DNA of 64,000 nucleotides from Auricularia sp. M13 (Eukaryota; Basidiomycota; Agaricomycetes; Auriculariales; Auriculariaceae). The notes beneath the pieces are model-generated. The model was not told where the DNA came from and made no database searches. It saw only the letters and a program-made list of their open reading frames with translations. Location: the NCBI GenBank assembly GCA_037042915.1, contig CM073196.1, forward strand, positions 3,596,001 through 3,660,000, written 5' to 3'. The first letter of the stretch is position 1; each line of letters opens with the position of its first letter. Shown in pieces: positions 4,300 to 62,516 of the stretch. Both the position numbers and the translations under genes were made by a program.

Positions 4300-6497
4300 A
4301 GTGTCATGCTTGTCCGTGTCGATCGCAGGCAGCTTCGCGGGCATCCGAGGACTTGGCATGCGGACGACCTCGATGAAGTCAGGAATCTGTCTGGATTCCA
4401 TGAGCTCAGAGCTGGTAATGATGGAGCACTGGTCAGAGACTACGCATACACGCATACACGCGCTGTTGCTGCAGTGATGTGTCACAGGAAATCATTTATG
4501 TCGCTGTCGTGTACCGCCTCGAGCTTGAGCGCTGTGAACGTTTCAGCGTGGCAGCATAAAGTACAGTATCTCAAAGACGGATCGGTGCACTAGACTGTCA
4601 CCAGCTGGAAACATTTGCTAGGTGCATATTTGCAACAACCACCGATAATTTATTGCTACAGTATTGGCCAGGCGGGAGTCATAGTTCTCCAAAGCTGCGG
4701 CCAGAGGATCTACAGTTCTTCGAAGCCTGTCGCACTCGTGGTAACTATCAGCCATCTTGTAGCTGACGGATTGGCAAGCCGCGGTGGGCTGACGACGCTC
4801 TCGAGCTGCCAGTGAAGTCCTAGAGATCACATGACACAAGGGCGAGGCTGTCGCGTCCCTCGCATCTGACGCGCCTGTGCTTGATCTGATAGACGAATAC
4901 ATGCATCATCAAATCCGCAGGCCCTCAGTGTGGCGAAGATTTAGCATCCATGATTTCGCTGTTGAAGGTTCTCCTGGAGCAGTGTGGGAAAGGGGACATG
5001 ACTCTGGGAGACGTCCGAGCTCCAGCTGTGTCGACGATTGAGGAAGCAGGGTTACGGACCCACCGTGTCGCCGACAGAAAACTGCGTGATGATGACATGC
5101 TGCCTCCAAGTCCGGGAAAATGAAGGAACTACTAGACGCGCTCTGGTTTCGCGGGAGGTGGTTCCGTTAGGGATTACATGGCATGCGAAGCTCCACAGGC
5201 TGCGCGCTCGTAGGTAATAAGAGCTCCGGTTTCGAGACGGTCAGAGACCTTTGGGCTCCACAATGGAAGAGCGCTCCGAGTCGGTCCCTAACCACGGCGC
5301 GCACGTGTGTAACATACATCGAGCTGTTTCATAGCACAGACTGCGTCGGTCGCGGTGGCTGGTCTCGGAGCTCCGCTAGCATTGAATGAACGCTCTCACA
5401 GTCTAAGCGAAGCTGCGAAACGGCGGTAGACTGCACACGGCGGCGTGGAGCGAGCGATGGATGTGTTGCATAGCGGCCAACAGACACTCATACAGTAACA
5501 GCGAAAGCTCCGGTTTCGAACGGGAGGTAGCCTGAGGCCTGAGTCCTTGGGCCCTCGATGTGGAGTTGCACTCGAAACACCGGCAAGTCTCCAGCGCTGT
5601 CCCTGGCGGCTGCACGCGACACCAGGTACAGTACGTACAATAGATTGAGGAGCGTCGGTAACAGAGGATGGAAGCAGGAATTTGAGGAAGACAGGGCGAT
5701 TAGTTATTAGACAGCACCCGCGACGAGGTGCTTCGGAACAGCCGGCTGGCGTGCGTGTCGCACGCCGTGATGATCCGGAGTGCCAGTGCGCAGGTCGCAC
5801 GATTCTGTTGCTTCGAAGCACTCGCGAACAATTATAAAAGAAAGACAGACTTCCAGGTCGCCAGTGGCAGCGAAAGCGATCCGGGATATTCAGCATTCAG
5901 CATTGACAGACAGTCGATAGCGCCATCCAAGAAACACACCGGGGGACACTGGGGACGGGCACAAATATTTACTTACATGCGCGACGGGGAACGGTTGGAA
6001 AGCACGGGCGGAAAACAGACTGGGATAGCGATCGAGGTGGCCAATGCGAAGTGAGCGCACTGGATATGTGAAAGGGAATAAGTCGGTGAGTCATTGGCAA
6101 AAGGCGCGCGCAGCGATAAGGGCGGCGCGCGCGTGGGCGGGCGAGATATGATCAGATGTATCGTCGGAGCGTTCTGTTCGTTGCGACTTAAGCGCTGGAG
6201 CTTGCGGGTTGCAAGAGAGAGAGGGAGATAAGCGGAGACGTCGGGTGGCCTGGCTGGGAGTCGTATCCTGTACCATACTTTCAAAACGCGCGTCTTATCG
6301 CGCTTAGGGGGTGGCCAGAGCGTTAATGGGGCACTATGGGGTGGTGGCGGTAGTTATCGGCGTGAGAGGAGGCCGCGGATGCCGCGGGATGTGGTGGGCT
6401 GGATTTTGGCGCCCTCAGGGTCGTCCTCGTCCTCGTCCTCGCGCACTGCACATCGTTTCCACAAAACAAAAAAGAAACAAGCTTCAGCACCAATCCG

Positions 6498-16100: not shown

Positions 16101-17859
16101 TGCGTCGCGTTACCAGCGCGTCAAGACGACATTAGCCAGCTATGCGCCAATTGAAGAGCCGTGGCAGGTGCGGGAATCGTGAGTACTTGTCCGATTGCTG
16201 CCCCTCCGCACCGCGGCTGAGCATTGCGTCCCAGCGTCGACCAGGTCTCCTCCATCAAAAAACGCGGCTCGTTGGACGTTTATGACTGCGCTCTCGACGC
16301 CGCGCGCCGCGTCTTCGCGTATTCATTGTGCTGGACGCCGTTCCGTCGCCGACCACCGCGGCCGAGTCGGCGTGTCGACCGCTCGTTTTCCGCGTTCCCG
16401 CTGCGGTGTACGGCGCGCGGCATGTCTACAAACGGCTGCATCAAGTAGCGCGCCGCTGCGCTGCGATCCCCTTCAACGGTGCGCGTTTTTGTCCGTTTCC
16501 CGCCCGAAGCTGATTTTGCCGTTGAAGTGAACATCGTCCGTTCGAGCCGCAACTTGGCATGCCGACTCATAGCGCTATTGGCGCTTGCAAGGCGCAGTGG
16601 GAAGGCCGGGTGAGTCGCCGTTCGCTCTGCGCGTCGATTGTGCTGACGTCCGATCCCGAGCCATCCCGCTCCGCGCGAGGCTGTCTGCCCAGGACATCAC
16701 GGCCGAGCCTGGCCACTCTGGCGACGTGCCTACACCCTACGACGCGCGGAGACGCCTCGCCGCTGCGCTATTTGGTGAGTTCTGCTCGATTCGCTCCCCG
16801 AGACCGACACTGACGCCTGGCCGCCAGACTTGCCCGTTCGTCTCGAGATCGCGCCCGCGACCTCACTGCTCGGCCATCTCGACATCGTTTGACCCGCGCA
16901 CTGTTTGGCCCGCCAAACGTCGTCTTCTCGCCGACGGCGACCGGCGTCTCGACTCGCACCACCCCAGCCCTCCGTCGTTTCCGCTGCGTCCCATGACGCA
17001 CTCTGGCATTCGCATTGCTGGGAACGGCGTCCGGTGCGATCGGTGAGCTCATTTTTTCGGTTACGTTTGCCATCATCGCCGGGTGTGCAACGGCCCATCG
17101 TCACTCGCACTCGTCCGCCGGCTCGGTCGCGTCGTTCGAGGTCTGCACGCCACCGGAAATGTACTCGAGTGTGCACGGCCACGATTCGGCGAAGACGCAG
17201 CCATTCGGTTACTCCTCCAAGACTTCGTACGTAGATATGGAATTTGCAGTACGGGTCAGAGAATTTCGGCGGTCCCAGTTGGTTCCCGCAGGTTCGGAAG
17301 GACTCCCGTGACGCACTATGGGCCTGTATTTAGGGCAGAATAGCATCGTGTAAACTAGTCCAAGTCGAAATATATGCTGTTTTTGAATTCCCAGTGATCG
17401 TCACACTTAAGCGAAATCATGTTTCATAAGCCATCTTCCATGGAAACGGGCGCTCAAGTCGAACTGCGATCGCATGTTGTGTGAATGTCGTCAATGTCCT
17501 CAAAGACTCTCAGCGGCCTGAGAGCGGTTTTCAATGCGATCTCACAGAGCGAACTGCTTCATTAGTTGCTCAGTATGCTGAACTAGAAGAGCTGAGTGTG
17601 TGAGTTCCGCGCATGTCATCGGCTCGCTTGTGAGGAATGCATTGCCACACGCATGATTTCTCATCCGCCGGCGAGCTCGAGAGCGTGCAGGACACGCCCA
17701 AAGCTGCATTTCGCAGTTATGTGGCTTTTCTCAGCCAGTGCCATGAATCTGCAGGCATCTGGCTGCAATTCTTGAGGGGAACACCAACCTGACCGGCGCG
17801 CATCACAGCCCGATTTCACCGCCGCTCCGCCGTCAGCCGTGCCAAGCGCCCTGTGAGGG

Positions 17860-27040: not shown

Positions 27041-27558
27041 AGCATCGTGTAAACTAGTCCAAGTCGAAATATATGCTGTTTTTGAATTCCCAGTGATCGT
27101 CACACTTAAGCGAAATCATGTTTCATAAGCCATCTTCCATGGAAACGGGCGCTCAAGTCGAACTGCGATCGCATGTTGTGTGAATGTCGTCAATGTCCTC
27201 AAAGACTCTCAGCGGCCTGAGAGCGGTTTTCAATGCGATCTCACAGAGCGAACTGCTTCATTAGTTGCTCAGTATGCTGAACTAGAAGAGCTGAGTGTGT
27301 GAGTTCCGCGCATGTCATCGGCTCGCTTGTGAGGAATGCATTGCCACACGCATGATTTCTCATCCGCCGGCGAGCTCGAGAGCGTGCAGGACACGCCCAA
27401 AGCTGCATTTCGCAGTTATGTGGCTTTTCTCAGCCAGTGCCATGAATCTGCAGGCATCTGGCTGCAATTCTTGAGGGGAACACCAACCTGACCGGCGCGC
27501 ATCACAGCCCGATTTCACCGCCGCTCCGCCGTCAGCCGTGCCAAGCGCCCTGTGAGGG

Positions 27559-36913: not shown

Positions 36914-36916
36914 ATT
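36914..36916. other. left target-site duplication (ATT)
   Basis: ATT directly precedes CACTGGGCCC and is repeated at 52597-52599. The sister units have a single ATT at this position. Confidence 0.85.
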
Positions 36917-37827
36917 CACTGGGCCCGATGACAAGGATATCTCAAGAATTGTTTGAGGATATCGCGCTGTCATTCGGACACTACGCACCAGGATTGCTCA
37001 AGAATCACATGCTGTAATCCTGGTGTGATCCTCAAGCCAATAGTTTGGATAACAGTCCAGGATAGCACGAGGAATTCTTGCTGAAAACCTGGTGAAAACC
37101 TGGTGAGAATTTGTAGATCATATTCAAGGTAGTGTTCCAGGATTTCTCGAAATTTCAGTCTTGCTTTTCCTCGTGCGATCCTTGAGCAACAGATACAACT
37201 TTATTCGAGGAATGTTCGCTGAAAACCTTGTGTAAACCTTGTGAGATACTGTGGTAAATACTTACAGAAATAGACAAGGTTTTCTCAAGGTTTTCTCAGT
37301 GGGTTCCTCGTGGGTTCCTCAAGACTAAATGACAAGATTCGCAAGAAATACGTTCAAGTCACACATGAAGGGGTCCTTGTGTGATTCTTGAGGGGTTGTA
37401 TTGGTTAGTGGTTGAGGATGGCATGGGGAGATACTGAAGAAAACCTCGTGGTGATATTTCACTTTGGTCCCGAGAATGACATGTGGTTTGCAGGATGTGA
37501 ATCTGGAGAAATCCTGAAATGAGAATAAAGGGAGTTGTTTGTTTGCAATGGGAATCCAAGAGCAGAAAGAGTGAGACATCAGGGATGGTGATTGAGAAAT
37601 CCAGGTCATGCGCAAAATGCCGGTCCCAAAATGGAAAATGAAAGATTTCAGAAAGATTGCAAGCACCCAAAGGGGGAGAATTGTTGATGGCACAGCAAGT
37701 TGGAACCCAATGAGGGATTGAATCAGCCAGGGGTACTACTGGGGCCTGAATGGTGTTTTTAAGGGAGAGGAGAGACACAGTGGTGGTTGACACATTGCGG
37801 GTGGCAGTTTCTGTGACAAGCAGTGTC
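36917..37827. repeat. left 911-bp terminal inverted repeat
   Basis: Matches the reverse complement of 51686-52596 over its full length with scattered mismatches, most of them near 37680-37740. The outer ~420 bp are packed with short repeated words: CCTGGTG, ACCTTGTGA, CAAGGTTTTCTCA and TTCCTCGTG. Subterminal repeats of this kind are transposase-binding sites in CACTA elements. A minus-strand frame at 37325-37693 lies within the TIR and is not a plausible gene. The inner ~45 bp resemble part of the satellite monomer. Confidence 0.9.
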
Positions 37828-40800
37828 AAGCACTCTTCCGCACAATCTGTCCTCTTTCCCAATATCAAATCGCATTGCCGAACGCAACAGAATGTTCCTG
37901 GGGTGCGATTGGACCCTGAACCGCGGTTTCTCACTGTCCGAATGTCCGCGGTGGTCGGCGACACAGCGTGGGTGGTGGTTGCTGTGACTCGCAGTGTCAA
38001 GCACTCTGCCGCACAATCTGTCCTGTTTCCCAATATCAAATCGCATTGCGGAACGCGAAAGAATGTTCCAGGGGTGCGATTGGACCCTGAACCGCGGTTC
38101 CTCACTGTCCGAATGTCCGCGGTGGTTGGCGACACAGCGTGGGTGGTGGTTGCTGTGACGCGCAGTGTCAAGCACTCTTCCGCACAATTTGTCCTCTTTC
38201 CCAATATCAAATCGCATTGCCGAACGCAAAAAGTAGATTTCTGGGGTGCGATTGGACCGTGAATCGCGGTTTCTCACAGTCCGAACGTCCGCGGTGGTTG
38301 GCGACACAGCGTGGGTGGTGGTTGCTGTGACGCGCAGTGTCAAGCACTCTGCCGCACAATCTGTCCTCTTTCCCAATATCAAATCGCATTGCGGAACGCA
38401 AAACGTAGATTCCTGGGGTGCGATTGGACCCTGAACCGCGGTTCCTCACAGTCCGAACGTCCGCGGTGGTCGGCAAAACAGCGTGGGTGGTGGTTGCTGT
38501 GACTCGCAGTGTCAAGCACTCTGCCGCACAATCTGTCCTCTTTCCCAATATCAAATCGCATTGCCGAACGCAAAAAGTAGATTTCTGGGGTGCGATTGGA
38601 CCGTGAATCGCGGTTTCTCACAGTCCGAACGTCCGCGGTGGTTGGCGACACAGCGTGGGTGGTGGTTGCTGTGACTCGCAGTGTCAAGCACTCTTCCGCA
38701 CAATCTGTCCTCTTTCCCAATATCAAATCGCATTGCCGAACGCAACAGAATGTTCCTGGGGTGCGATTGGACCCTGAACCGCGGTTTCTCACTGTCCGAA
38801 TGTCCGCGGTGGTCGGCGACACAGCGTGGGTGGTGGTTGCTGTGACTCGCAGTGTCAAGCACTCTGCCGCACAATCTGTCCTGTTTCCCAATATCAAATC
38901 GCATTGCGGAACGCGAAAGAATGTTCCAGGGGTGCGATTGGACCCTGAACCGCGGTTCCTCACTGTCCGAATGTCCGCGGTGGTTGGCGACACAGCGTGG
39001 GTGGTGGTTGCTGTGACGCGCAGTGTCAAGCACTGTTCCGCACAATCTGTCCTCTTTCCCAATATCAAATCGCATTGCGGAACGCGAAAGAATGTTCATG
39101 GGGTGCGATTGGACCGTGAATCGTGGTTTCTCACAGTCCGAACGTCCGCGGTGGTCGGCGACACAGCGTGGGTGGTGGTTGCTGTGACTCGCAGTGTCAA
39201 GCACTCTGCCGCACAATTTGTCCTCTTTCCCAATATCAAATCGCATTGCCGAACGCAAAAAGTAGATTTCTGGGGTCCGATTGGACCCTGAATCGCGGTT
39301 TCTCACTGTCCGAATGTCCGCGGTGGTCGGCGACACAGCGTGGGTGGTGGTTGCTGTGACTCGCAGTGTCAAGCACTCTGCCGCACAATCTGTCCTCTTT
39401 CCCAATATCAAATCGCATTGCGGAACGCGAAAGAATGTTCCTGGGGTGCGATTGGACCCTGAATCGCGGTTTCTCACTGTCCGAATGTCCGCGGTGGTTG
39501 GCGACACAGCGTGGGTGGTGGTTGCTGTGACTCGCAGTGTCAAGCACTCTGCCGCACAATCTGTCCTCTTTCCCAATATCAAATCGCATTGCGGAACGCG
39601 AAAGAATGTTCCTGGGGTGCGATTGGACCCTGAATCGCGGTTTCTCACTGTCCGAATGTCCGCGGTGGTCGGCGACACAGCGTGGGTGGTGGTTGCTGTG
39701 ACTCGCAGTGTCAAGCACTCTGCCGCACAATCTGTCCTCTTTCCCAATATCAAATCGCATTGCGGAACGCGAAAGAATGTTCCTGGGGTGCGATTGGACC
39801 CTGAATCGCGGTTTCTCACAGTCCGAACGTCCGCGGTGGTCGGCGACACAGCGTGGGTGGTGGTTGCTGTGACTCGCAGTGTCAAGCACTCTGCCGCACA
39901 ATCTGTCCTCTTTCCCAATATCAAATCGCATTGCGGAACGCGAAAGAATGTTCCTGGGGTGCGATTGGACCGCGAATTGCGGTTTCTCACTGTCCGAACG
40001 TCCGCGGTGGTCGGCGACACAGCGTGGGTGGTGGTTGCTGTGACTCGCAGTGTCAAGCACTCTGCCGCACAATCTGTCCTCTTTCCCAATATCAAATCGC
40101 ATTGCGGAACGCGAAAGAATGTTCCTGGGGTGCGATTGGACCCTGAATCGCGGTTTCTCACTGTCCGAATGTCCGCGGTGGTTGGCGACACAGCGTGGGT
40201 GGTGGTTGCTGTGACTCGCAGTGTCAAGCACTCTGCCGCACAATCTGTCCTCTTTCCCAATATCAAATCGCATTGCGGAACGCGAAAGAATGTTCCTGGG
40301 GTGCGATTGGACCCTGAATCGCGGTTTCTCACTGTCCGAATGTCCGCGGTGGTTGGCGACACAGCGTGGGTGGTGGTTGCTGTGACTCGCAGTGTCAAGC
40401 ACTCTGCCGCACAATCTGTCCTCTTTCCCAATATCAAATCGCATTGCGGAACGCGAAAGAATGTTCCTGGGGTGCGATTGGACCCTGAATCGCGGTTTCT
40501 CACTGTCCGAACGTCCGCGGTGGTCGGCGACACAGCGTGGGTGGTGGTTGCTGTGACTCGCAGTGTCAAGCACTCTTCCGCACAATTTGTCCTCTTTCCC
40601 AATATCAAATCGCATTGCCGAACGCAAAAAGTAGATTTCTGGGGTGCGATTGGACCGTGAATCGCGGTTTCTCACAGTCCGAACGTCCGCGGTGGTCGGC
40701 GACACAGCGTGGGTGGTGGTTGCTGTGACTCGCAGTGTCAAGCACTCTGCCGCACAATCTGTCCTCTTTCCCAATATCAAATCGCATTGCGGAACGCGAA

Positions 40801-43800
40801 AGAATGTTCCTGGGGTGCGATTGGACCGTGAATTGCGGTTTCTCACTGTCCGAACGTCCGCGGTGGTCGGCGACACAGCGTGGGTGGTGGTTGCTGTGAC
40901 GCGCAGTGTCAAGCACTCTTCCGCACAATTTGTCCTCTTTCCCAATATCAAATCGCATTGCGGAACGCAAAAAGTAGGTTTCTGGGGTGCGATTGGACCG
41001 TGAATCGCGGTTTCTCACCGTCCGAACGTCCGCGGTGGTCGGCGACACAGCGTGGGTGGTGGTTGCTGTGACTCGCAGTGTCAAGCACTCTGCCGCACAA
41101 TCTGTCCTCTTTCCCAATATCAAATCGCATTGCGGAACGCGAAAGAATGTTCCTGGGGTGCGATTGGACCGTGAATTGCGGTTTCTCACTGTCCGAACGT
41201 CCGCGGTGGTCGGCGACACAGCGTGGGTGGTGGTTGCTGTGACTCGCAGTGTCAAGCACTCTTCCGCACAATCTGTCCTCTTTCCCAATATCAAATCGCA
41301 TTGCGGAACGCGAAAGAATGTTCATGGGGTCCGATTGGACCCTGAATCGCGGTTTCTCACTGTCCGAATGTCCGCTCTGGTTGGCGACACAGCGTGGGTG
41401 GTGGTTGCTGTGACTCGCAGTGTCAAGCACTCTGCCGCACAATCTGTCCTCTTTCCCAATATCAAATCGCATTGCGGAACGCGAAAGAATGTTCCTGGGG
41501 TGCGATTGGACCGTGAATCGCGCTTTCTCACTGTCCGAACGTCCGCGGTGGTCGGCGACACAGCGTGGGTGGTGGTTGCTGTGACTCGCAGTGTCAAGCA
41601 CTCTTCCGCACAATTTGTCCTCTTTCCCAATATCAAATCGCATTGCCGAACGCAAAAAGTAGATTTCTGGGGTGAGATTGGACCGTGAATCGCGGTTTCT
41701 CACAGTCCGAACGTCCGCGGTGGTCGGCGACACAGAGTGGGTGGTGGTTGCTGTGACTCGCAGTGTCAAGCACTCTGCCGCACAATCTGTCCTCTTTCCC
41801 AATATCAAATCGCATTGCGGAACGCGAAAGAATGTTCCTGGGGTGCGATTGGACCCTGAACCGCGCTTTCTCACTGTCCGAACGTCCGCGGTGGTCGGCG
41901 ACACAGAGTGGGTGGTGGTTGCTGTGACTCGCAGTGTCAAGCACTCTGCCGCACAATCTGTCCTCTTTCCCAATATCAAATCGCATTGCGGAACGCGAAA
42001 GAATGTTCCTGGGGTGCGATTGGACCCTGAACCGCGCTTTCTCACTGTCCGAACGTCCGCGGTGGTCGGCGACACAGCGTGGGTGGTGTTTGCTGTGACT
42101 CGCAGTGTCAAGCACTCTTCCGCACAATTTGTCCTCTTTCCCAATATCAAATCGCATTGCCGAACGCAAAAAGTAGATTTCTGGGGTGCGATTGGACCGT
42201 GAATCGCGGTTTCTCACAGTCCGAACGTCCGCGGTGGTTGGCGACACAGCGTGGGTGGTGGTTGCTGTGACGCGCAGTGTCAAGCACTCTGCCGCACAAT
42301 CTGTCCTCTTTCCCAATATCAAATCGCATTGCGGAACGCGAAAGAATGTTCCTGGGGTGCGATTGGACCCTGAACCGCGGTTCCTCACTGTCCGAACGTC
42401 CGCGGTGGTCGGCGACACAGCGTGGGTGGTGGTTGCTGTGACTCGCAGTGTCAAGCACTCTGCCGCACAATCTGTCCTCTTTCCCAATATCAAATCGCAT
42501 TGCCGAACGCAAAAAGTAGATTTCTGGGGTGCGATTGGACCGTGAATCGCGGTTTCTCACAGTCCGAACGTCCGCGGTGGTTGGCGACACAGCGTGGGTG
42601 GTGGTTGCTGTGACTCGCAGTGTCAAGCACTCTTCCGCACAATCTGTCCTCTTTCCCAATATCAAATCGCATTGCCGAACGCAACAGAATGTTCCTGGGG
42701 TGCGATTGGACCCTGAACCGCGGTTTCTCACTGTCCGAATGTCCGCGGTGGTCGGCGACACAGCGTGGGTGGTGGTTGCTGTGACTCGCAGTGTCAAGCA
42801 CTCTGCCGCACAATCTGTCCTGTTTCCCAATATCAAATCGCATTGCGGAACGCGAAAGAATGTTCCAGGGTGCGATTGGACCCTGAACCGCGGTTCCTCA
42901 CTGTCCGAATGTCGCGGTGGTTGGCGACACAGCGTGGGTGGTGGTTGCTGTGCGCGCAGTGTCAAGCACTGTTCCGCACAATCTGTCCTCTTTCCCAATA
43001 TCAAATCGCATTGCGGAACGCGAAAGAATGTTCATGGGGTGCGATTGGACCGTGAATCGTGGTTTCTCACAGTCCGAACGCGTCCGCGGTGGTCGGCGAC
43101 ACAGCGTGGGTGGTGGTTGCTGTGACTCGCAGTGTCAAGCACTCTGCCGCACAATTTGTCCTCTTTCCCAATATCAAATCGCATTGCCGAACGCAAAAAG
43201 TAGATTTCTGGGGTCCGATTGGACCCTGAATCGCGGTTTCTCACTGTCCGAATGTCCGCGGTGGTCGGCGACACAGCGTGGGTGGTGGTTGCTGTGACTC
43301 GCAGTGTCAAGCACTCTGCCGCACAATCTGTCCTCTTTCCCAATATCAAATCGCATTGCGGAACGCGAAAGAATGTTCCTGGGGTGCGATTGGACCCTGA
43401 ACCGCGGTTTCTCACTGTCCGAACGTCCGCGGTGGTCGGCGACACAGCGTGGGTGGTGGTTGCTGTGACTCGCAGTGTCAAGCACTCTTCCGCACAATTT
43501 GTCCTCTTTCCCAATATCAAATCGCATTGCCGAACGCAAAAAGTAGATTTCTGGGGTGCGATTGGACCGTGAATCGCGGTTTCTCACAGTCCGAACGTCC
43601 GCGGTGGTCGGCGACACAGCGTGGGTGGTGGTTGCTGTGACTCGCAGTGTCAAGCACTCTGCCGCACAATCTGTCCTCTTTCCCAATATCAAATCGCATT
43701 GCGGAACGCGAAAGAATGTTCCTGGGGTGCGATTGGACCGTGAATTGCGGTTTCTCACTGTCCGAACGTCCGCGGTGGTCGGCGACACAGCGTGGGTGGT

Positions 43801-46800
43801 GGTTGCTGTGACGCGCAGTGTCAAGCACTCTTCCGCACAATTTGTCCTCTTTCCCAATATCAAATCGCATTGCGGAACGCAAAAAGTAGGTTTCTGGGGT
43901 GCGATTGGACCGTGAATTGCGGTTTCTCACTGTCCGAACGTCCGCGGTGGTCGGCGACACAGCGTGGGTGGTGGTTGCTGTGACTCGCAGTGTCAAGCAC
44001 TCTGCCGCACAATCTGTCCTCTTTCCCAATATCAAATCGCATTGCGGAACGCGAAAGAATGTTCCTGGGGTGCGATTGGACCGTGAATCGCGCTTTCTCA
44101 CTGTCCGAACGTCCGCGGTGGTCGGCGACACAGCGTGGGTGGTGGTTGCTGTGACTCGCAGTGTCAAGCACTCTGCCGCACAATCTGTCCTCTTTCCCAA
44201 TATCAAATCGCATTGCGGAACGCGAAAGAATGTTCCTGGGGTGCGATTGGACCGTGAATTGCGGTTTCTCACTGTCCGAACGTCCGCGGTGGTCGGCGAC
44301 ACAGCGTGGGTGGTGGTTGCTGTGACTCGCAGTGTCAAGCACTCTTCCGCACAATCTGTCCTCTTTCCCAATATCAAATCGCATTGCGGAACGCGAAAGA
44401 ATGTTCATGGGGTCCGATTGGACCCTGAATCGCGGTTTCTCACTGTCCGAATGTCCGCTCTGGTTGGCGACACAGCGTGGGTGGTGGTTGCTGTGACTCG
44501 CAGTGTCAAGCACTCTGCCGCACAATCTGTCCTCTTTCCCAATATCAAATCGCATTGCGGAACGCGAAAGAATGTTCCTGGGGTGCGATTGGACCGTGAA
44601 TCGCGCTTTCTCACTGTCCGAACGTCCGCGGTGGTCGGCGACACAGCGTGGGTGGTGGTTGCTGTGACTCGCAGTGTCAAGCACTCTTCCGCACAATTTG
44701 TCCTCTTTCCCAATATCAAATTGCATTGCCGAACGCAAAAAGTAGATTTCTGGGGTGAGATTGGACCGTGAATCGCGGTTTCTCACAGTCCGAACGTCCG
44801 CGGTGGTCGGCGACACAGAGTGGGTGGTGGTTGCTGTGACTCGCAGTGTCAAGCACTCTGCCGCACAATCTGTCCTCTTTCCCAATATCAAATCGCATTG
44901 CGGAACGCGAAAGAATGTTCCTGGGGTGCGATTGGACCCTGAACCGCGCTTTCTCACTGTCCGAACGTCCGCGGTGGTCGGCGACACAGCGTGGGTGGTG
45001 GTTGCTGTGACTCGCAGTGTCAAGCACTCTTCCGCACAATTTGTCCTCTTTCCCAATATCAAATCGCATTGCCGAACGCAAAAAGTAGATTTCTGGGGTG
45101 CGATTGGACCTTGAATCGCGGTTTCTCACAGTCCGAACGTCCGCGGTGGTCGGCAACACAGCGTGGGTGGTGGTTGCTGTGACGCGCAGTGTCAAGCACT
45201 CTTCCGCACAATTTGTCCTCTTTCCCAATATCAAATCGCATTGCCGAACGCAAAAAGTAGGTTTCTGGGGTGCGATTGGACCGTGAATCGCGGTTTCTCA
45301 CCGTCCGAACGTCCGCGGTGGTCGGCGACACAGCGTGGGTGGTGGTTGCTGTGACTCGCAGTGTCAAGCACTCTGCCGCACAATCTGTCCTCTTTCCCAA
45401 TATCAAATCGCATTGCGGAACGCGAAAGAATGTTCCTGGGGTGCGATTGGACCGTGAATCGCGCTTTCTCACTGTCCGAACGTCCGCGGTGGTCGGCGAC
45501 ACAGCGTGGGTGGTGGTTGCTGTGACTCGCAGTGTCAAGCACTCTGCCGCACAATCTGTCCTCTTTCCCAATATCAAATCGCATTGCGGAACGCGAAAGA
45601 ATGTTCCTGGGGTGCGATTGGACCGTGAATTGCGGTTTCTCACTGTCCGAACGTCCGCGGTGGTCGGCGACACAGCGTGGGTGGTGGTTGCTGTGACTCG
45701 CAGTGTCAAGCACTCTTCCGCACAATCTGTCCTCTTTCCCAATATCAAATCGCATTGCGGAACGCGAAAGAATGTTCATGGGGTCCGATTGGACCCTGAA
45801 TCGCGGTTTCTCACTGTCCGAATGTCCGCTCTGGTTGGCGACACAGCGTGGGTGGTGGTTGCTGTGACTCGCAGTGTCAAGCACTCTGCCGCACAATCTG
45901 TCCTCTTTCCCAATATCAAATCGCATTGCGGAACGCGAAAGAATGTTCCTGGGGTGCGATTGGACCGTGAATTGCGGTTTCTCACTGTCCGAACGTCCGC
46001 GGTGGTCGGCGACACAGCGTGGGTGGTGGTTGCTGTGACTCGCAGTGTCAAGCACTCTTCCGCACAATCTGTCCTCTTTCCCAATATCAAATCGCATTGC
46101 GGAACGCGAAAGAATGTTCATGGGGTCCGATTGGACCCTGAATCGCGGTTTCTCACTGTCCGAATGTCCGCTCTGGTTGGCGACACAGCGTGGGTGGTGG
46201 TTGCTGTGACGCGCAGTGTCAAGCACTCTTCCGCACAATCTGTCCTCTTTCCCAATATCAAATCGCATTGCCGAACGCAAAAAGTAGGTTCCTGGGGTGC
46301 GATTGGACCGTGAATCGCGCTTTCTCACAGTCCGAACGTCCGCGGTGGTCGGCGACACAGCGTGGGTGGTGGTTGCTGTGACTCGCAGTGTCAAGCACTG
46401 TTCCGCACAATCTGTCCTCTTTCCCAATATCAAATCGCATTGCCGAACGCAAAAAGTAGGTTCCTGGGGTGCGATTGGACCGTGAATCGCGCTTTCTCAC
46501 TGTCCGAACGTCCGCGGTGGTCGGCGACACAGCGTGGGTGGTGGTTGCTGTGACTCGCAGTGTCAAGCACTCTGCCGCACAATCTGTCCTCTTTCCCAAT
46601 ATCAAATCGCATTGCCGAACGCAAAAAGTAGGTTCCTGGGGTGCGATTGGACCGTGAATCGCGCTTTCTCACTGTCCGTACGTCCGCGGTGGTCGGCGAC
46701 ACAGCGTGGGTGGTGGTTGCTGTGACTCGCAGTGTCAAGCACTCTGCCGCACAATCTGTCCTCTTTCCCAATATCAAATCGCATTGCGGAACGCGAAAGA

Positions 46801-49800
46801 ATGTTCATGGGGTGCGATTGGACCCTGAATCGCGGTTTTTCACTGTCCGAATGTCCGCTCTGGTTGGCGACACAGCGTGGGTGGTGGTTGCTGTGACGCG
46901 CAGTGTCAAGCACTGTTCCGCACAATCTGTCCTCTTTCCCAATATCAAATCGCATTGCGGAACGCGAAAGAATGTTCCTGGGGTGCGATTGGACCGTGAA
47001 TCGCGCTTTCTCACTGTCCGAACGTCCGCGGTGGTCGGCGACACAGAGTGGGTGGTGGTTGCTGTGACTCGCAGTGTCAAGCACTCTGCCGCACAATCTG
47101 TCCTCTTTCCCAATATCAAATCGCATTGCGGAACACGAAAGAATGTTCCTGGGGTGCGATTGGACCGTGAATTGCGGTTTCTCACTGTCCGAACGTCCGC
47201 GGTGGTCGGCGACACAGCGTGGGTGGTGGTTGCTATGACTCGCAGTGTCAAGCACTCTGCCGCACAATCTGTCCTCTTTCCCAATATCAAATCGCATTGC
47301 GGAACGCGAAAGAATGTTCATGGGGTGCGATTGGACCCTGAATCGCGGTTTTTCACTGTCCGAATGTCCGCTCTGGTTGGCGACACAGCGTGGGTGGTGG
47401 TTGCTGTGACGCGCAGTGTCAAGCACTGTTCCGCACAATCTGTCCTCTTTCCCAATATCAAATCGCATTGCGGAACGCGAAAGAATGTTCCTGGGGTGCG
47501 ATTGGACCGTGAATCGCGCTTTCTCACTGTCCGAGCGTCCGCGGTGGTCGGCGACACAGAGTGGGTGGTGGTTGCTGTGACTCGCAGTGTCAAGCACTCT
47601 GCCGCACAATCTGTCCTCTTTCCCAATATCAAATCGCATTGCGGAACACGAAAGAATGTTCCTGGGGTGCGATTGGACCGTGAATTGCGGTTTCTCACTG
47701 TCCGAACGTCCGCGGTGGTCGGCGACACAGCGTGGGTGGTGGTTGCTGTGACTCGCAGTGTCAAGCACTCTGCCGCACAATCTGTCCTCTTTCCCAATAT
47801 CAAATCGCATTGCCGAACGCAAAAAGTAGGTTTCTGGGGTGCGATTGGACCGTGAATCGCGCTTTCTCACAGTCCGAACGTCCGCGGTGGTCGGCGACAC
47901 AGCGTGGGTGGTGGTTGCTGTGACTCGCAGTGTCAAGCACTCTTCCGCACAATCTGTCCTCTTTCCCAATATCAAATCGCATTGCGGAACGCGAAAGAAT
48001 GTTCATGGGGTCCGATTGGACCCTGAATCGCGGTTTCTCACTGTCCGAATGTCCGCTCTGGTCGGCGACACAGCGTGGGTGGTGGTTGCTGTGACTCGCA
48101 GTGTCAAGCACTCTGCCGCACAATCTGTCCTCTTTCCCAATATCAAAACGCATTGCCGAACGCAAAAAGTAGGTTCCTGGGGTGCGATTGGACCGTGAAT
48201 CGCGCTTTCTCACAGTCCGAACGTCCGCGGTGGTCGGCGACACAGCGTGGGTGGTGGTTGCTGTGACTCGCAGTGTCAAGCACTGTTCCGCACAATCTGT
48301 CCTCTTTCCCAATATCAAATCGCATTGCCGAACGCAAAAAGTAGGTTCCTGGGGTGCGATTGGACCGTGAATCGCGCTTTCTCACTGTCCGAACGTCCGC
48401 GGTGGTCGGCGACACAGCGTGGGTGGTGGTTGCTGTGACTCGCAGTGTCAAGCACTCTGCCGCACAATCTGTCCTCTTTCCCAATACCAAATCGCATTGC
48501 CGAACGCAAAAAGTAGGTTTCTGGGGTGCGATTGGACCGTGAATCGCGCTTTCTCACTGTCCGTACGTCCGCGGTGGTCGGCGACACAGCGTGGGTGGTG
48601 GTTGCTGTGACTCGCAGTGTCAAGCACTCTGCCGCACAATCTGTCCTCTTTCCCAATATCAAATCGCATTGCGGAACGCGAAAGAATGTTCATGGGGTGC
48701 GATTGGACCCTGAATCGCGGTTTTTCACTGTCCGAATGTCCGCTCTGGTTGGCGACACAGCGTGGGTGGTGGTTGCTGTGACGCGCAGTGTCAAGCACTG
48801 TTCCGCACAATCTGTCCTCTTTCCCAATATCAAATCGCATTGCGGAACGCGAAAGAATGTTCCTGGGGTGCGATTGGACCGTGAATCGCGCTTTCTCACT
48901 GTCCGAACGTCCGCGGTGGTCGGCGACACAGAGTGGGTGGTGGTTGCTGTGACTCGCAGTGTCAAGCACTCTGCCGCACAATCTGTCCTCTTTCCCAATA
49001 TCAAATCGCATTGCGGAACGCGAAAGAATGTTCCTGGGGTGCGATTGGACCCTGAATCGTGGTTTCTCACAGTCCGAACGTCCGCGGTGGTCGGCGACAC
49101 AGCGTGGGTGGTGGTTGCTGTGACTCGCAGTGTCAAGCACTCTGCCGCACAATCTGTCCTCTTTCCCAATATCAAATCGCATTGCGGAACACGAAAGAAT
49201 GTTCCTGGGGTGCGATTGGACCGTGAATTGCGGTTTCTCACAGTCCGAACGTCCGCGGTGGTCGGCGACACAGCGTGGGTGGTGGTTGCTGTGACTCGCA
49301 GTGTCAAGCACTCTGCCGCACAATCTGTCCTCTTTCCCAATATCAAATCGCATTGCGGAACACGAAAGAATGTTCCTGGGGTGCGATTGGACCGTGAATT
49401 GCGGTTTCTCACTGTCCGAACGTCCGCGGTGGTCGGCGACACAGCGTGGGTGGTGGTTGCTGTGACTCGCAGTGTCAAGCACTCTGCCGCACAATCTGTC
49501 CTCTTTCCCAATATCAAATCGCATTGCCGAACGCAAAAAGTAGGTTTCTGGGGTGCGATTGGACCGTGAATCGCGCTTTCTCACTGTCCGTACGTCCGCG
49601 GTGGTCGGCGACACAGCGTGGGTGGTGGTTGCTGTGACTCGCAGTGTCAAGCACTCTGCCGCACAATCTGTCCTCTTTCCCAATATCAAATCGCATTGCG
49701 GAACGCGAAAGAATGTTCATGGGGTGCGATTGGACCGTGAATCGCGCTTTCTCACTGTCCGAACGTCCGCGGTGGTCGGCGACACAGAGTGGGTGGTGGT

Positions 49801-51685
49801 TGCTGTGACTCGCAGTGTCAAGCACTCTGCCGCACAATCTGTCCTCTTTCCCAATATCAAATCGCATTGCGGAACACGAAAGAATGTTCCTGGGGTGCGA
49901 TTGGACCGTGAATTGCGGTTTCTCACAGTCCGAACGTCCGCGGTGGTCGGCGACACAGCGTGGGTGGTGGTTGCTGTGACTCGCAGTGTCAAGCACTCTG
50001 CCGCACAATCTGTCCTCTTTCCCAATATCAAATCGCATTGCGGAACACGAAAGAATGTTCCTGGGGTGCGATTGGACCGTGAATTGCGGTTTCTCACTGT
50101 CCGAACGTCCGCGGTGGTCGGCGACACAGCGTGGGTGGTGGTTGCTGTGACTCGCAGTGTCAAGCACTCTGCCGCACAATCTGTCCTCTTTCCCAATATC
50201 AAATCGCATTGCGGAACGCAAAAAGTAGGTTTGTGGGGTGCGATTGGACCGTGAATCGCGGTTTCTCACCGTCCGAACGTCCGCGGTGGTCGGCGACACA
50301 GCGTGGGTGGTGGTTGCTGTGACTCGCAGTGTCAAGCACTCTGCCGCACAATCTGTCCTCTTTCCCAATATCAAAACGCATTGCCGAACGCAAAAAGTAG
50401 GTTCCTGGGGTGCGATTGGACCGTGAATCGCGCTTTCTCACAGTCCGAACGTCCGCGGTGGTCGGCGACACAGCGTGGGTGGTGGTTGCTGTGACTCGCA
50501 GTGTCAAGCACTGTTCCGCACAATCTGTCCTCTTTCCCAATATCAAATCGCATTGCCGAACGCAAAAAGTAGATTTCTGGGGTGCGATTGGACCGTGAAT
50601 CGCGGTTTCTCACAGTCCGAACGTCCGCGGTGGTCGGCGACACAGCGTGGGTGGTGGTTGCTGTGACTCGCAGTGTCAAGCACTCTGCCGCACAATCTGT
50701 CCTCTTTCCCAATATCAAATCGCATTGCGGAACGCGAAAGAATGTTCCTGGGGTGCGATTGGACCGTGAATTGCGGTTTCTCACTGTCCGAACGTCCGCG
50801 GTGGTCGGCGACACAGCGTGGGTGGTGGTTGCTGTGACGCGCAGTGTCAAGCACTCTTCCGCACAATTTGTCCTCTTTCCCAATATCAAATCGCATTGCG
50901 GAACGCAAAAAGTAGGTTTCTGGGGTGCGATTGGACCGTGAATCGCGCTTTCTCACTGTCCGTACGTCCGCGGTGGTCGGCGACACAGAGTGGGTGGTGG
51001 TTGCTGTGACTCGCAGTGTCAAGCACTCTGCCGCACAATCTGTCCTCTTTCCCAATATCAAATCGCATTGCGGAACGCGAAAGAATGTTCATGGGGTGCG
51101 ATTGGACCGTGAATCGTGGTTTCTCACAGTCCGAACGTCCGCGGTGGTCGGCGACACAGAGTGGGTGGTGGTTGCTGTGACTCGCAGTGTCAAGCACTCT
51201 GCCGCACAATCTGTCCTCTTTCCCAATATCAAATCGCATTGCGGAACGCGAAAGAATGTTCCTGGGGTGCGATTGGACCGTGACTCGCGCTTTCTCACTG
51301 TCCGAACGTCCGCGGTGGTCGGCGACACAGCGTGGGTGGTGGTTGCTGTGACGCGCAGTGTCAAGCACTGTTCCGCACAATCTGTCCTCTTTCCCAATAT
51401 CAAAACGCATTGCCGAACGCAAAAAGTAGATTTCTGGGGTGCGATTGGACCGTGAATCGCGGTTTCTCACAGTCCGAACGTCCGCGGTGGTTGGCGACAC
51501 AGCGTGGGTGGTGGTTGCTGTGACTCGCAGTGTCAAGCACTCTGCCGCACAATCTGTCCTCTTTCCCAATATCAAATCGCATTGCGGAACGCGAAAGAAT
51601 GTTCATGGGGTGCGATTGGACCCTGAACCGCGGTTTCTCACTGTCCGAACGTCCATGGTGGTCGGCCACACTGTTCGACATGTTC
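37828..51685. repeat. 171/172-bp satellite array, about 81 monomers
   Basis: Head-to-tail copies, all in one orientation. The word AATATC within CCCAATATCAAA occurs from 37861 to 51568, 80 intervals averaging 171.3 bp. Two types differ in one segment: GAACGCGAAAGAATGTTCCT (171 bp) and GAACGCAAAAAGTAGATTTCT-like (172 bp). Other variants segregate at many positions (CCCTGAA/CCGTGAA, ACAGCG/ACAGAG, GACTCG/GACGCG, ACTCTGC/ACTCTTC/ACTGTTC). Long frames stay open on both strands because 171 is divisible by three and some frames of the monomer lack stops. They have no protein signature and I do not call them genes. Confidence 0.95.
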
Positions 51686-52596
51686 GACACTGCTTGTCAC
51701 AGAAACTGCCACCCGCAATGTGTCAACCACCACTCTGTCTCTCCTCTCCCTTAAAAACACCATTCAGGCCCCAGTCGTACCCCTGGCTGAGACAATCCCT
51801 AATTGGGTTCCAACTTGCTGTGCCATCAACTGTCTTCCCCCTTTGGGTGCTTGCAATCTTTCTGAAATCTTTCATTTTCCATTTTGGGACAGGCATTTTG
51901 CGCATGACCTGGATTTCTCAATCACCATCCCTGATGTCTCACTCTTTCTGCTCTTGGATTCCCATTGCAAACAAACAACTCCCTTTATTCTCATTTCAGG
52001 ATTTCTCCAGATTCACATCCTGCAAACCACATGTCATTCTCGGGACCAAAGTGAAATATCACCACGAGGTTTTCTTCAGTATCTCCCCATGCCATCCTCA
52101 ACCACTAACCAATACAACCCCTCAAGAATCACACAAGGACCCCTTCATGTGTGACTTGAGCGTATTTCTTGCGAATCTTGTCATTTAGTCTTGAGGAACC
52201 CACGAGGAACCCACTGAGAAAACCTTGAGAAAACCTTGTCTATTTCTGTAAGTATTTACCACAGTATCTCACAAGGTTTACACAAGGTTTTCAGCGAACA
52301 TTCCTCGAATAAAGTTGTATCTGTTGCTCAAGGATCGCACGAGGAAAAGCAAGACTGAAATTTCGAGAAATCCTGGAACACTATCTTGAATATGATCTAC
52401 AAATTCTCACCAGGTTTTCACCAGGTTTTCAGCAAGAATTCCTCGTGCTATCCTGGACTGTTATCCAAACTATTGGCTTGAGGATCACACCAGGATTACA
52501 GCATGTGATTCTTGAGCAATCCTGGTGCGTAGTGTCCGAATGACAGCGCGATATCCTCAAACAATTCTTGAGATATCCTTGTCATCGGGCCCAGTG
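51686..52596. repeat. right 911-bp terminal inverted repeat
   Basis: Inverted partner of 36917-37827, ending ...CCTTGTCATCGGGCCCAGTG. It joins the array after a broken last monomer (51640-51675) and a short non-repeat stretch with two TGTTCGACA words. The subterminal words of the left arm occur here in reverse complement (CACCAGG, TCACAAGGT, CACGAGGAA). Confidence 0.9.
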
Positions 52597-52599
52597 ATT
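52597..52599. other. right target-site duplication (ATT)
   Basis: Second copy of ATT; the unit sequence resumes with AGTTGCTCAG as in the uninterrupted units. Confidence 0.85.
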
Positions 52600-62216: not shown

Positions 62217-62516
62217 CATTAGTTGCTCAGTATGCTGAACTAGAAGAGCTGAGTGTGTGAGTTCCGCGCATGTCATCGGCTCGCTTGTGAGGAATGCATT
62301 GCCACACGCATGATTTCTCATCCGCCGGCGAGCTCGAGAGCGTGCAGGACACGCCCAAAGCTGCATTTCGCAGTTATGTGGCTTTTCTCAGCCAGTGCCA
62401 TGAATCTGCAGGCATCTGGCTGCAATTCTTGAGGGGAACACCAACCTGACCGGCGCGCATCACAGCCCGATCTCACCGCCGCTCCGCCGTCAGCCGTGCC
62501 AAGCGCCCTGTGAGGG

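Follow-up and report, generated by a model that had tools for sequence, protein, structure and literature searches.

A 64,000-nucleotide stretch of contig C4 (positions 3596001-3660000; hereafter the window) in the 52.1-Mb, 14-contig assembly of Auricularia sp. M13 contains an insertion of 15,680 bp, here called E1 (window positions 36917-52596). We consider E1 probably to be a non-autonomous CACTA-like transposon, EnSpm-type by its ends, with long foldback-like ends and a satellite interior, whose array was already aboard when the element landed. A first-pass annotation of the window had proposed a giant non-autonomous CACTA-like element with a satellite interior, and our analysis supports that proposal overall.

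Structure and insertion site of E1

The terminal inverted repeats (TIRs) of E1 are 911-bp copies of each other with 12 mismatches (98.7% identity), in agreement with the ends that the first-pass annotation had placed at 36917..52596; the outer 642 bp hold two of these mismatches and the inner 269 bp ten (3.7%). Both ends begin CACTGGGCCC. An ATT flanks the element on each side, and the other units of the surrounding host tandem array that span the site (U1, U2 and U4; 3/3) have a single ATT within an otherwise matching 80-base empty site, so E1 is a true insertion with a 3-bp duplication, as had been annotated, and it entered an ATT inside one unit of the host array. A chance origin of the ends is excluded by their length and identity, together with end patterns that gave no matches in reversed controls.

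Between the ends, Tandem Repeats Finder (TRF) reported a period of 171 and 81.0 copies at 37799-51671, and an iterated profile reported 81 full monomers at 37799-51673 with gaps of at most 1 bp, bearing out the annotated block of about 13.9 kb of 171/172-bp repeats as an uninterrupted array that spans 13,875 of the 15,680 bp (88.5%). The inner edge of each TIR resembles the monomer: the array and the left TIR share 29 bp, the first monomer starting within the left TIR, and the right TIR ends with an inverted monomer start. The features, in window coordinates, are:

36914..36916, no strand: target-site duplication (TSD), left copy (ATT); the site is empty, with a single ATT, in three paralogous units
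36917..37827, plus strand: left TIR, 911 bp, starting CACTGGGCCCGATGACAAGG; 98.7% identical to the inverted right end and present at three other loci
36917..37406, plus strand: subterminal repeat region with CCTTGTG, CTCAAGAAT and AGGATTTC-like motifs in both orientations; from 8-mer counts against shuffles and from repeat families
37799..51673, plus strand: satellite array, 81 monomers of 171/172 bp in one orientation, uninterrupted; from TRF and the profile, mean pairwise identity 0.946
51674..51685, no strand: short spacer between array and right TIR; from the coordinates of the TIR and the profile
51686..52596, minus strand: right TIR, 911 bp, an inverted copy of the left TIR
52597..52599, no strand: TSD, right copy (ATT); from the empty-site comparison
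17561..17563, no strand: empty target site in unit U1, single ATT; from comparison of paralogous units
27260..27262, no strand: empty target site in unit U2, single ATT; from the same comparison
62218..62220, no strand: empty target site in unit U4, single ATT; from the same comparison

The monomers of E1 differ from one another by 5.4% on average. Fifty-three of the 81 are distinct, with 53 identical pairs and 35 clusters at one difference or fewer, and 50 of 177 alignment columns segregate. Identity stays flat along the array (0.942-0.954 across lags 1-24, no periodicity), and a run of five monomers is repeated, compared to a longest run of three in any of 200 shuffles, a sign of block copying. 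Monomer secondary structure showed no excess stability (z -0.04).

We read E1 as containing no credible gene. Five open reading frames (ORFs) of at least 150 aa extend across TIR and array, and all were free of Pfam matches (5/5). A further 36 ORFs of that length lie in the array only, and seven of the eight scanned had Pfam matches; several exceeded the curated whole-protein cut-off (MAX_effector, Daxx, Toxin_13), yet no single stretch passed, and we read these as sums over a periodic translation and not genes. The first-pass view that the element lacks a coding gene thus held for the five TIR-spanning and eight of 36 array-only ORFs scanned.

Relatives of E1 and the search for a transposase

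E1-type ends occur at three further loci, E2, E3 and E4, with 96-97% identity; the case that the first-pass annotation had named as refuting its proposal, ends at this locus only, therefore did not arise. Perfect 20-bp ends number seven genome-wide (reversed control 0); each is an end of one of E1-E4, and 7/7 start CACTGGGCCCGATGACAAGG. E2 (C3:4072235-4090300; 18,066 bp) is flanked by an AAG duplication and has 74 detected monomer pieces; its right TIR is truncated at position 642. E3 (C3:4220328-4222901; 2,574 bp) has a GAT duplication, four monomers and hairpin arms of 1,136 bp that are 99.56% identical by gapped BLAST (0.565 ungapped, which we put down to a 1-bp indel). E4 (contig C3, end at 167671) consists of one end and one monomer and adjoins a Gypsy-like pol reading frame recognised by eye. 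The first-pass annotation had called for other loci with variable monomer numbers and 3-bp duplications like ATT; the profile counts of 81, 74, 4 and 1 for E1-E4, and the AAG and GAT duplications, agree with that expectation. E4 was considered as an autonomous copy and rejected, as it has a single end and stops within the Gypsy-like pol ORF (by eye). As read by eye, E4 lies within C3:150501-179000 between inverted copies of a reading frame resembling reverse transcriptase/ribonuclease H, about 20 kb apart and 97% alike.

A conserved subterminal 25-mer is found at 12 places, comprising E1-E4 and relics on contigs C6, C7 and C9 (reversed control 0). These three decayed relatives, about 0.4-0.5 kb long, have family subterminal sequence and a CACTG-type end (seen by eye on the C7 relic), and those on C7 and C9 are 69-77% identical to the E1 TIR. 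These relatives suggest a small palindromic ancestor for the family, from which the array-filled form was derived. The 911-bp ends of E1 and the 1136-bp arms of E3 could form hairpins, as in foldback elements.

Dense subterminal repeats mark CACTA elements, and short repeats in both orientations are present in TIR positions 1-490 of E1, where the best 8-mer (one mismatch allowed) has 11 sites, against 60 shuffles that averaged 4.4 and never exceeded 6; the inner part of the TIR gave four sites against a shuffle mean of 4.5. The termini of E1-E4 are CACTG..CAGTG, of the CAC..GTG type (CACTA/CACTG) expected of CACTA/EnSpm, and the three elements with both ends have 3-bp duplications (ATT, AAG, GAT; 3/3). 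Fungal EnSpm elements have CAC..GTG ends and 3-bp duplications, and Plavaka elements, of which families are known from Agaricomycotina, have TGT..ACA or CATCA..TGATG ends and 2-3-bp duplications (PMC12730594, excerpt); the E1-E4 termini do not match the Plavaka pattern. Together, these features strongly suggest that the family works like a non-autonomous CACTA; its placement in CACTA would be by ends, duplications and subterminal repeats only.

Genome-wide profile matches numbered 18 for the Tnp2 transposase Transposase_21 (17 over the cut-off), 87 for Plavaka, 149 for KDZ and 49 for DUF6533. The last three counts suggest a mushroom-forming basidiomycete as host, KDZ expansion and DUF6533 being linked to that group. 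An inverted-repeat scan of 1.5-kb flanks recovered no paired ends around 20 of the 87 Plavaka and ten of the 18 Transposase_21 matches, and wider flanks of the Transposase_21 locus at C9:235490 had no CACTG/CACTA pair. An inverted pair of 333 bp at that locus was rejected as TIRs because it extends to 763 bp at 84% and is, by eye, duplicated host sequence. The surrounding C9:231000-240900 holds a 798-aa Transposase_21 frame beside a copy of the LTR-like (long terminal repeat) repeat that is also inserted in E2, flanked by inverted, duplicated gene-like sequence. Allowing up to three mismatches, E1-type ends occur at 18 places, seven of which are the ends of E1-E4; six of the 11 further places were read, and all were rejected as ends of a partner element. 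C6:3882534 marks one end of a small, decayed palindrome, and C10:615839 is a 65-bp solo relic with no transposase recognised by eye among the ORFs of the adjoining 9 kb; at the other four, the match to the TIR spans 20 bp only in two, 27 bp (81%, E 0.002) in one, and is absent in one.

Confinement, growth and arrival of the satellite

We counted monomers genome-wide with a 26-bp pattern allowing up to three mismatches, which more diverged monomers escape. The pattern occurs at 158 places (control 0), and local counts of 81 in E1, 72 in E2, 4 in E3 and 1 in E4 sum to the same 158. Within the limits of this search the satellite is therefore present only inside the E1-E4 family, the evidence being equal totals and not place-by-place coordinates, and the pattern search of the assembly found no array of the 171-bp monomer standing apart from these elements. 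The arrays of E1 and E2 qualify as satellite DNA: they are long (81 and 74 monomers), and their monomers are near-identical (on average 94.6% in either array). TIR positions 862-911 agree with the E1/E2 monomer consensus at 37-40 of 50 sites (74-80%) in the five ends tested, compared to 28 of 50 for the best of 500 letter shuffles; the simplest origin would be that monomers arose from the inner TIR edge by duplication, followed by unequal exchange.

E2 records how an array grows. An insert of about 852 bp is present in it four times, the copies spaced 4,119, 2,603 and 2,602 bp apart and 99.66-100% alike, each with identical flanks and a CACTG duplication, so a single insertion was copied in blocks and the E2 array grew in place. 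The insert has at least 41 matches including the four in E2 (with 40 of 228 candidates scored), some copies are paired about 3.46 kb apart, and CACTG is duplicated at its edges, on which grounds we read it as a probable solo LTR. In 18 E2 monomers the first 29 bp are replaced by a nearly constant 44-bp segment, giving an alternative 186-bp monomer that often alternates with the standard form. Positions 5667-6149 of E2 hold a nested 483-bp insert whose inverted ends carry telomere-like CCTAA runs. The fourfold insert and the matching counts of 158 together support the earlier proposal that the satellite was amplified inside the element.

For the arrival of the E1 array, we compared its flanks with the neighbouring host units. 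Against the empty unit U4, the left flank differs at 11 of 5997 positions and the right flank at 3 of 1000; against U2, 2 kb of left flank differs at 32 of 1984 (1.6%). Growth from one monomer after insertion would be expected to leave diversity near the flank divergence. Since the monomers differ by 5.4% and the flanks by 0.2-0.3%, E1 probably already held tens of diverged monomers on landing, and we infer from this divergence that transposition seeded a ready-made satellite block. The delivery of such a block, claimed in the first-pass annotation, thus gains indirect support.

The alternative that the element was short on insertion, holding one or few monomers, and reached 81 copies later at the locus, is unlikely, although the in-place growth marked by the four E2 insert copies, the 53 identical monomer pairs in E1 and the existence of elements with one and four monomers all speak for it. 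With flanks about 0.2-0.3% from the adjoining empty unit and 1.6% (left, 2 kb) from U2, growth from one monomer to a 5.4% difference would require the array to mutate much faster. That another transposase, of Plavaka or a different non-EnSpm type, moves these ends is improbable: Plavaka matches outnumber those of Transposase_21 in the genome (87 versus 18), but CACTG..CAGTG termini with 3-bp duplications in all three two-ended elements fit EnSpm (PMC12730594, excerpt). For quinoa, the published reading is that a Chenopodium CACTA captured a satellite already present in the genome (PMC8978399, excerpt). Arrays that the assembly lacks, or that have diverged beyond the reach of the pattern, would be compatible with such capture; with genome and family counts both at 158, and an inner TIR that is itself monomer-like, we consider it very unlikely here. 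Tandem arrays are hard to assemble, which speaks for a wrongly built array or junction; the clean duplications, the independent copies with different arrays, and 53 distinct monomers of 81 in no periodic order (0.942-0.954, lags 1-24) make an artefact barely credible.

Several observations weigh against an array-bearing CACTA-like element as we describe it. Across 1.77 kb, the right flank of E1 differs from the next unit at 28 of 1774 positions (1.6%), and flanks of U3/U4 could have been converted after insertion. The inner TIR differs at 10 of 269 positions between sides, far above the outer part, and the outer TIRs may have been homogenised by gene conversion, making them a poor clock; gene conversion among few variants could also mimic many distinct monomers. 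Monomer identity is 0.908 between E1 and E2 compared to 0.946 within each; 40 columns are polymorphic in at least four copies of one or both arrays, and in only four of these are alleles shared between the arrays. This greater difference between than within the two elements suggests that much of the homogenisation of the arrays took place within each lineage. Finally, the places and loci read yielded no transposase-bearing element with E1 ends: the autonomous partner that the first-pass annotation had looked to was not found among six of the 11 end-like places and ten of the 18 Transposase_21 loci.

Among the monomers nearest the TIRs in E2 and E3, together with the lone monomer of E4, pairwise identity is 0.93-0.96. 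The E1 edge monomer is not especially close to them (0.875-0.900), which limits this likeness to three of the four elements. A midpoint-rooted monomer tree without a support test (156 of 160 monomers, four short E2 pieces dropped) is descriptive only.

For E1 as an array-bearing CACTA-like element, we propose that a transposase made elsewhere would recognise the CACTG termini and subterminal repeats, and that cut and paste would move the whole 15.7-kb body, array included. A stretch of the inner TIR would duplicate and unequal exchange build the monomer array, which would grow by block duplication within the element; a landing element would then seed a ready-made satellite block at the new locus. 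More tentatively, the family could be an obligate transposon-satellite hybrid, in which the satellite reaches new loci solely by transposition, the array turns over inside, and the element cycles between a short hairpin (E3, E4) and a giant array-filled form (E1, E2); such a hybrid is conceivable and somewhat doubtful, and repair after excision would perhaps boost its array turnover.

Known satellite-carrying transposons and the host array

Satellite-carrying transposons are already known, and E1 seems to be an extreme form of them, hosted by a fungus. The foldback transposon Tetris of Drosophila virilis has 220-bp repeats within its TIRs in arrays of up to 66 copies; 408 of 610 assembled repeats lie in contigs without Tetris ends, and fiber-FISH (fluorescence in situ hybridization) found no repeat-only array (PMC4079207, excerpt). 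Tetris and the E1 family are alike in being apparently non-autonomous and foldback-like, with internal tandem repeats growing within the element, and no autonomous partner was found for Tetris either, according to that excerpt. The Tetris TIR shares 37 bp (about 80%) with its repeat (PMC4079207, excerpt), which parallels the likeness of the inner E1 TIR to its monomer. Unlike Tetris, whose repeats lie in the TIRs, E1 has its array as the interior, and all 158 detected monomers are in the family; host and termini differ as well.

A Chenopodium quinoa CACTA of 16.5 kb, present in several copies, carries a 5.55-kb array of 32.5 copies of 171 bp (PMC8978399, excerpt). It is similar to E1 in size and in carrying a satellite array, but has a transposase gene and an array near its 3' end (PMC8978399, excerpt), whereas E1 has no recognisable gene and its array makes up 88.5% of the element. 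We take the shared 171-bp monomer length as coincidence, the monomers having been compared by length alone. The quinoa authors favour capture and report that arrays often lie inside or near CACTA elements (PMC8978399, excerpt). In Xenopus, the miniature inverted-repeat transposable elements (MITEs) miDNA4 and Xstir are small and vary in internal monomer number, and miDNA4 is a Tc1/mariner MITE (PMC12628747, excerpt); the E1 family likewise varies in monomer number, but is CACTA-like. With the CACTA Jozin, part of a CACTA element gave rise to the monomer of a Chenopodium satellite, as proposed for E1; the source there is a transposase fragment some 40 bp long (PMC7320549, excerpt), whereas the candidate source in E1 is the inner TIR edge.

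Among titles and abstract starts of the open-access literature, we found no report that describes a satellite-carrying transposon from a mushroom-forming fungus or an element made up almost entirely of array, each a weak claim. It has long been asked how satellites come to spread to new loci; here the whole detected satellite lies inside a transposon family, and, being found only within E1-E4, the 171-bp repeat looks like a satellite that moves by riding in a transposon. E1 is a datable insertion with empty sites adjoining, and the E2 insert counts array duplications, so that in-place growth and delivery by transposition become separable and testable across strains.

The host tandem array occupies window positions 8463-64000 in units of about 9.7 kb, with four full copies (one split by E1) and the start of a fifth. 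Divergence is 0.04% between U1 and U2 and 1.1-2.8% between other pairs; with a 1.2-kb probe, four copies were detected on C4, along with a 74% relative on C12. Ribosomal RNA was rejected as the identity of this repeat, there being no Rfam match at gathering scores, and the six unit ORFs tested gave no Pfam match (6/6). Elsewhere in the window, one F-box-like match falls below its cut-off (21.7 versus 24.3 bits), and positions 2308-2562 form an imperfect palindrome of 255 bp at 76%.

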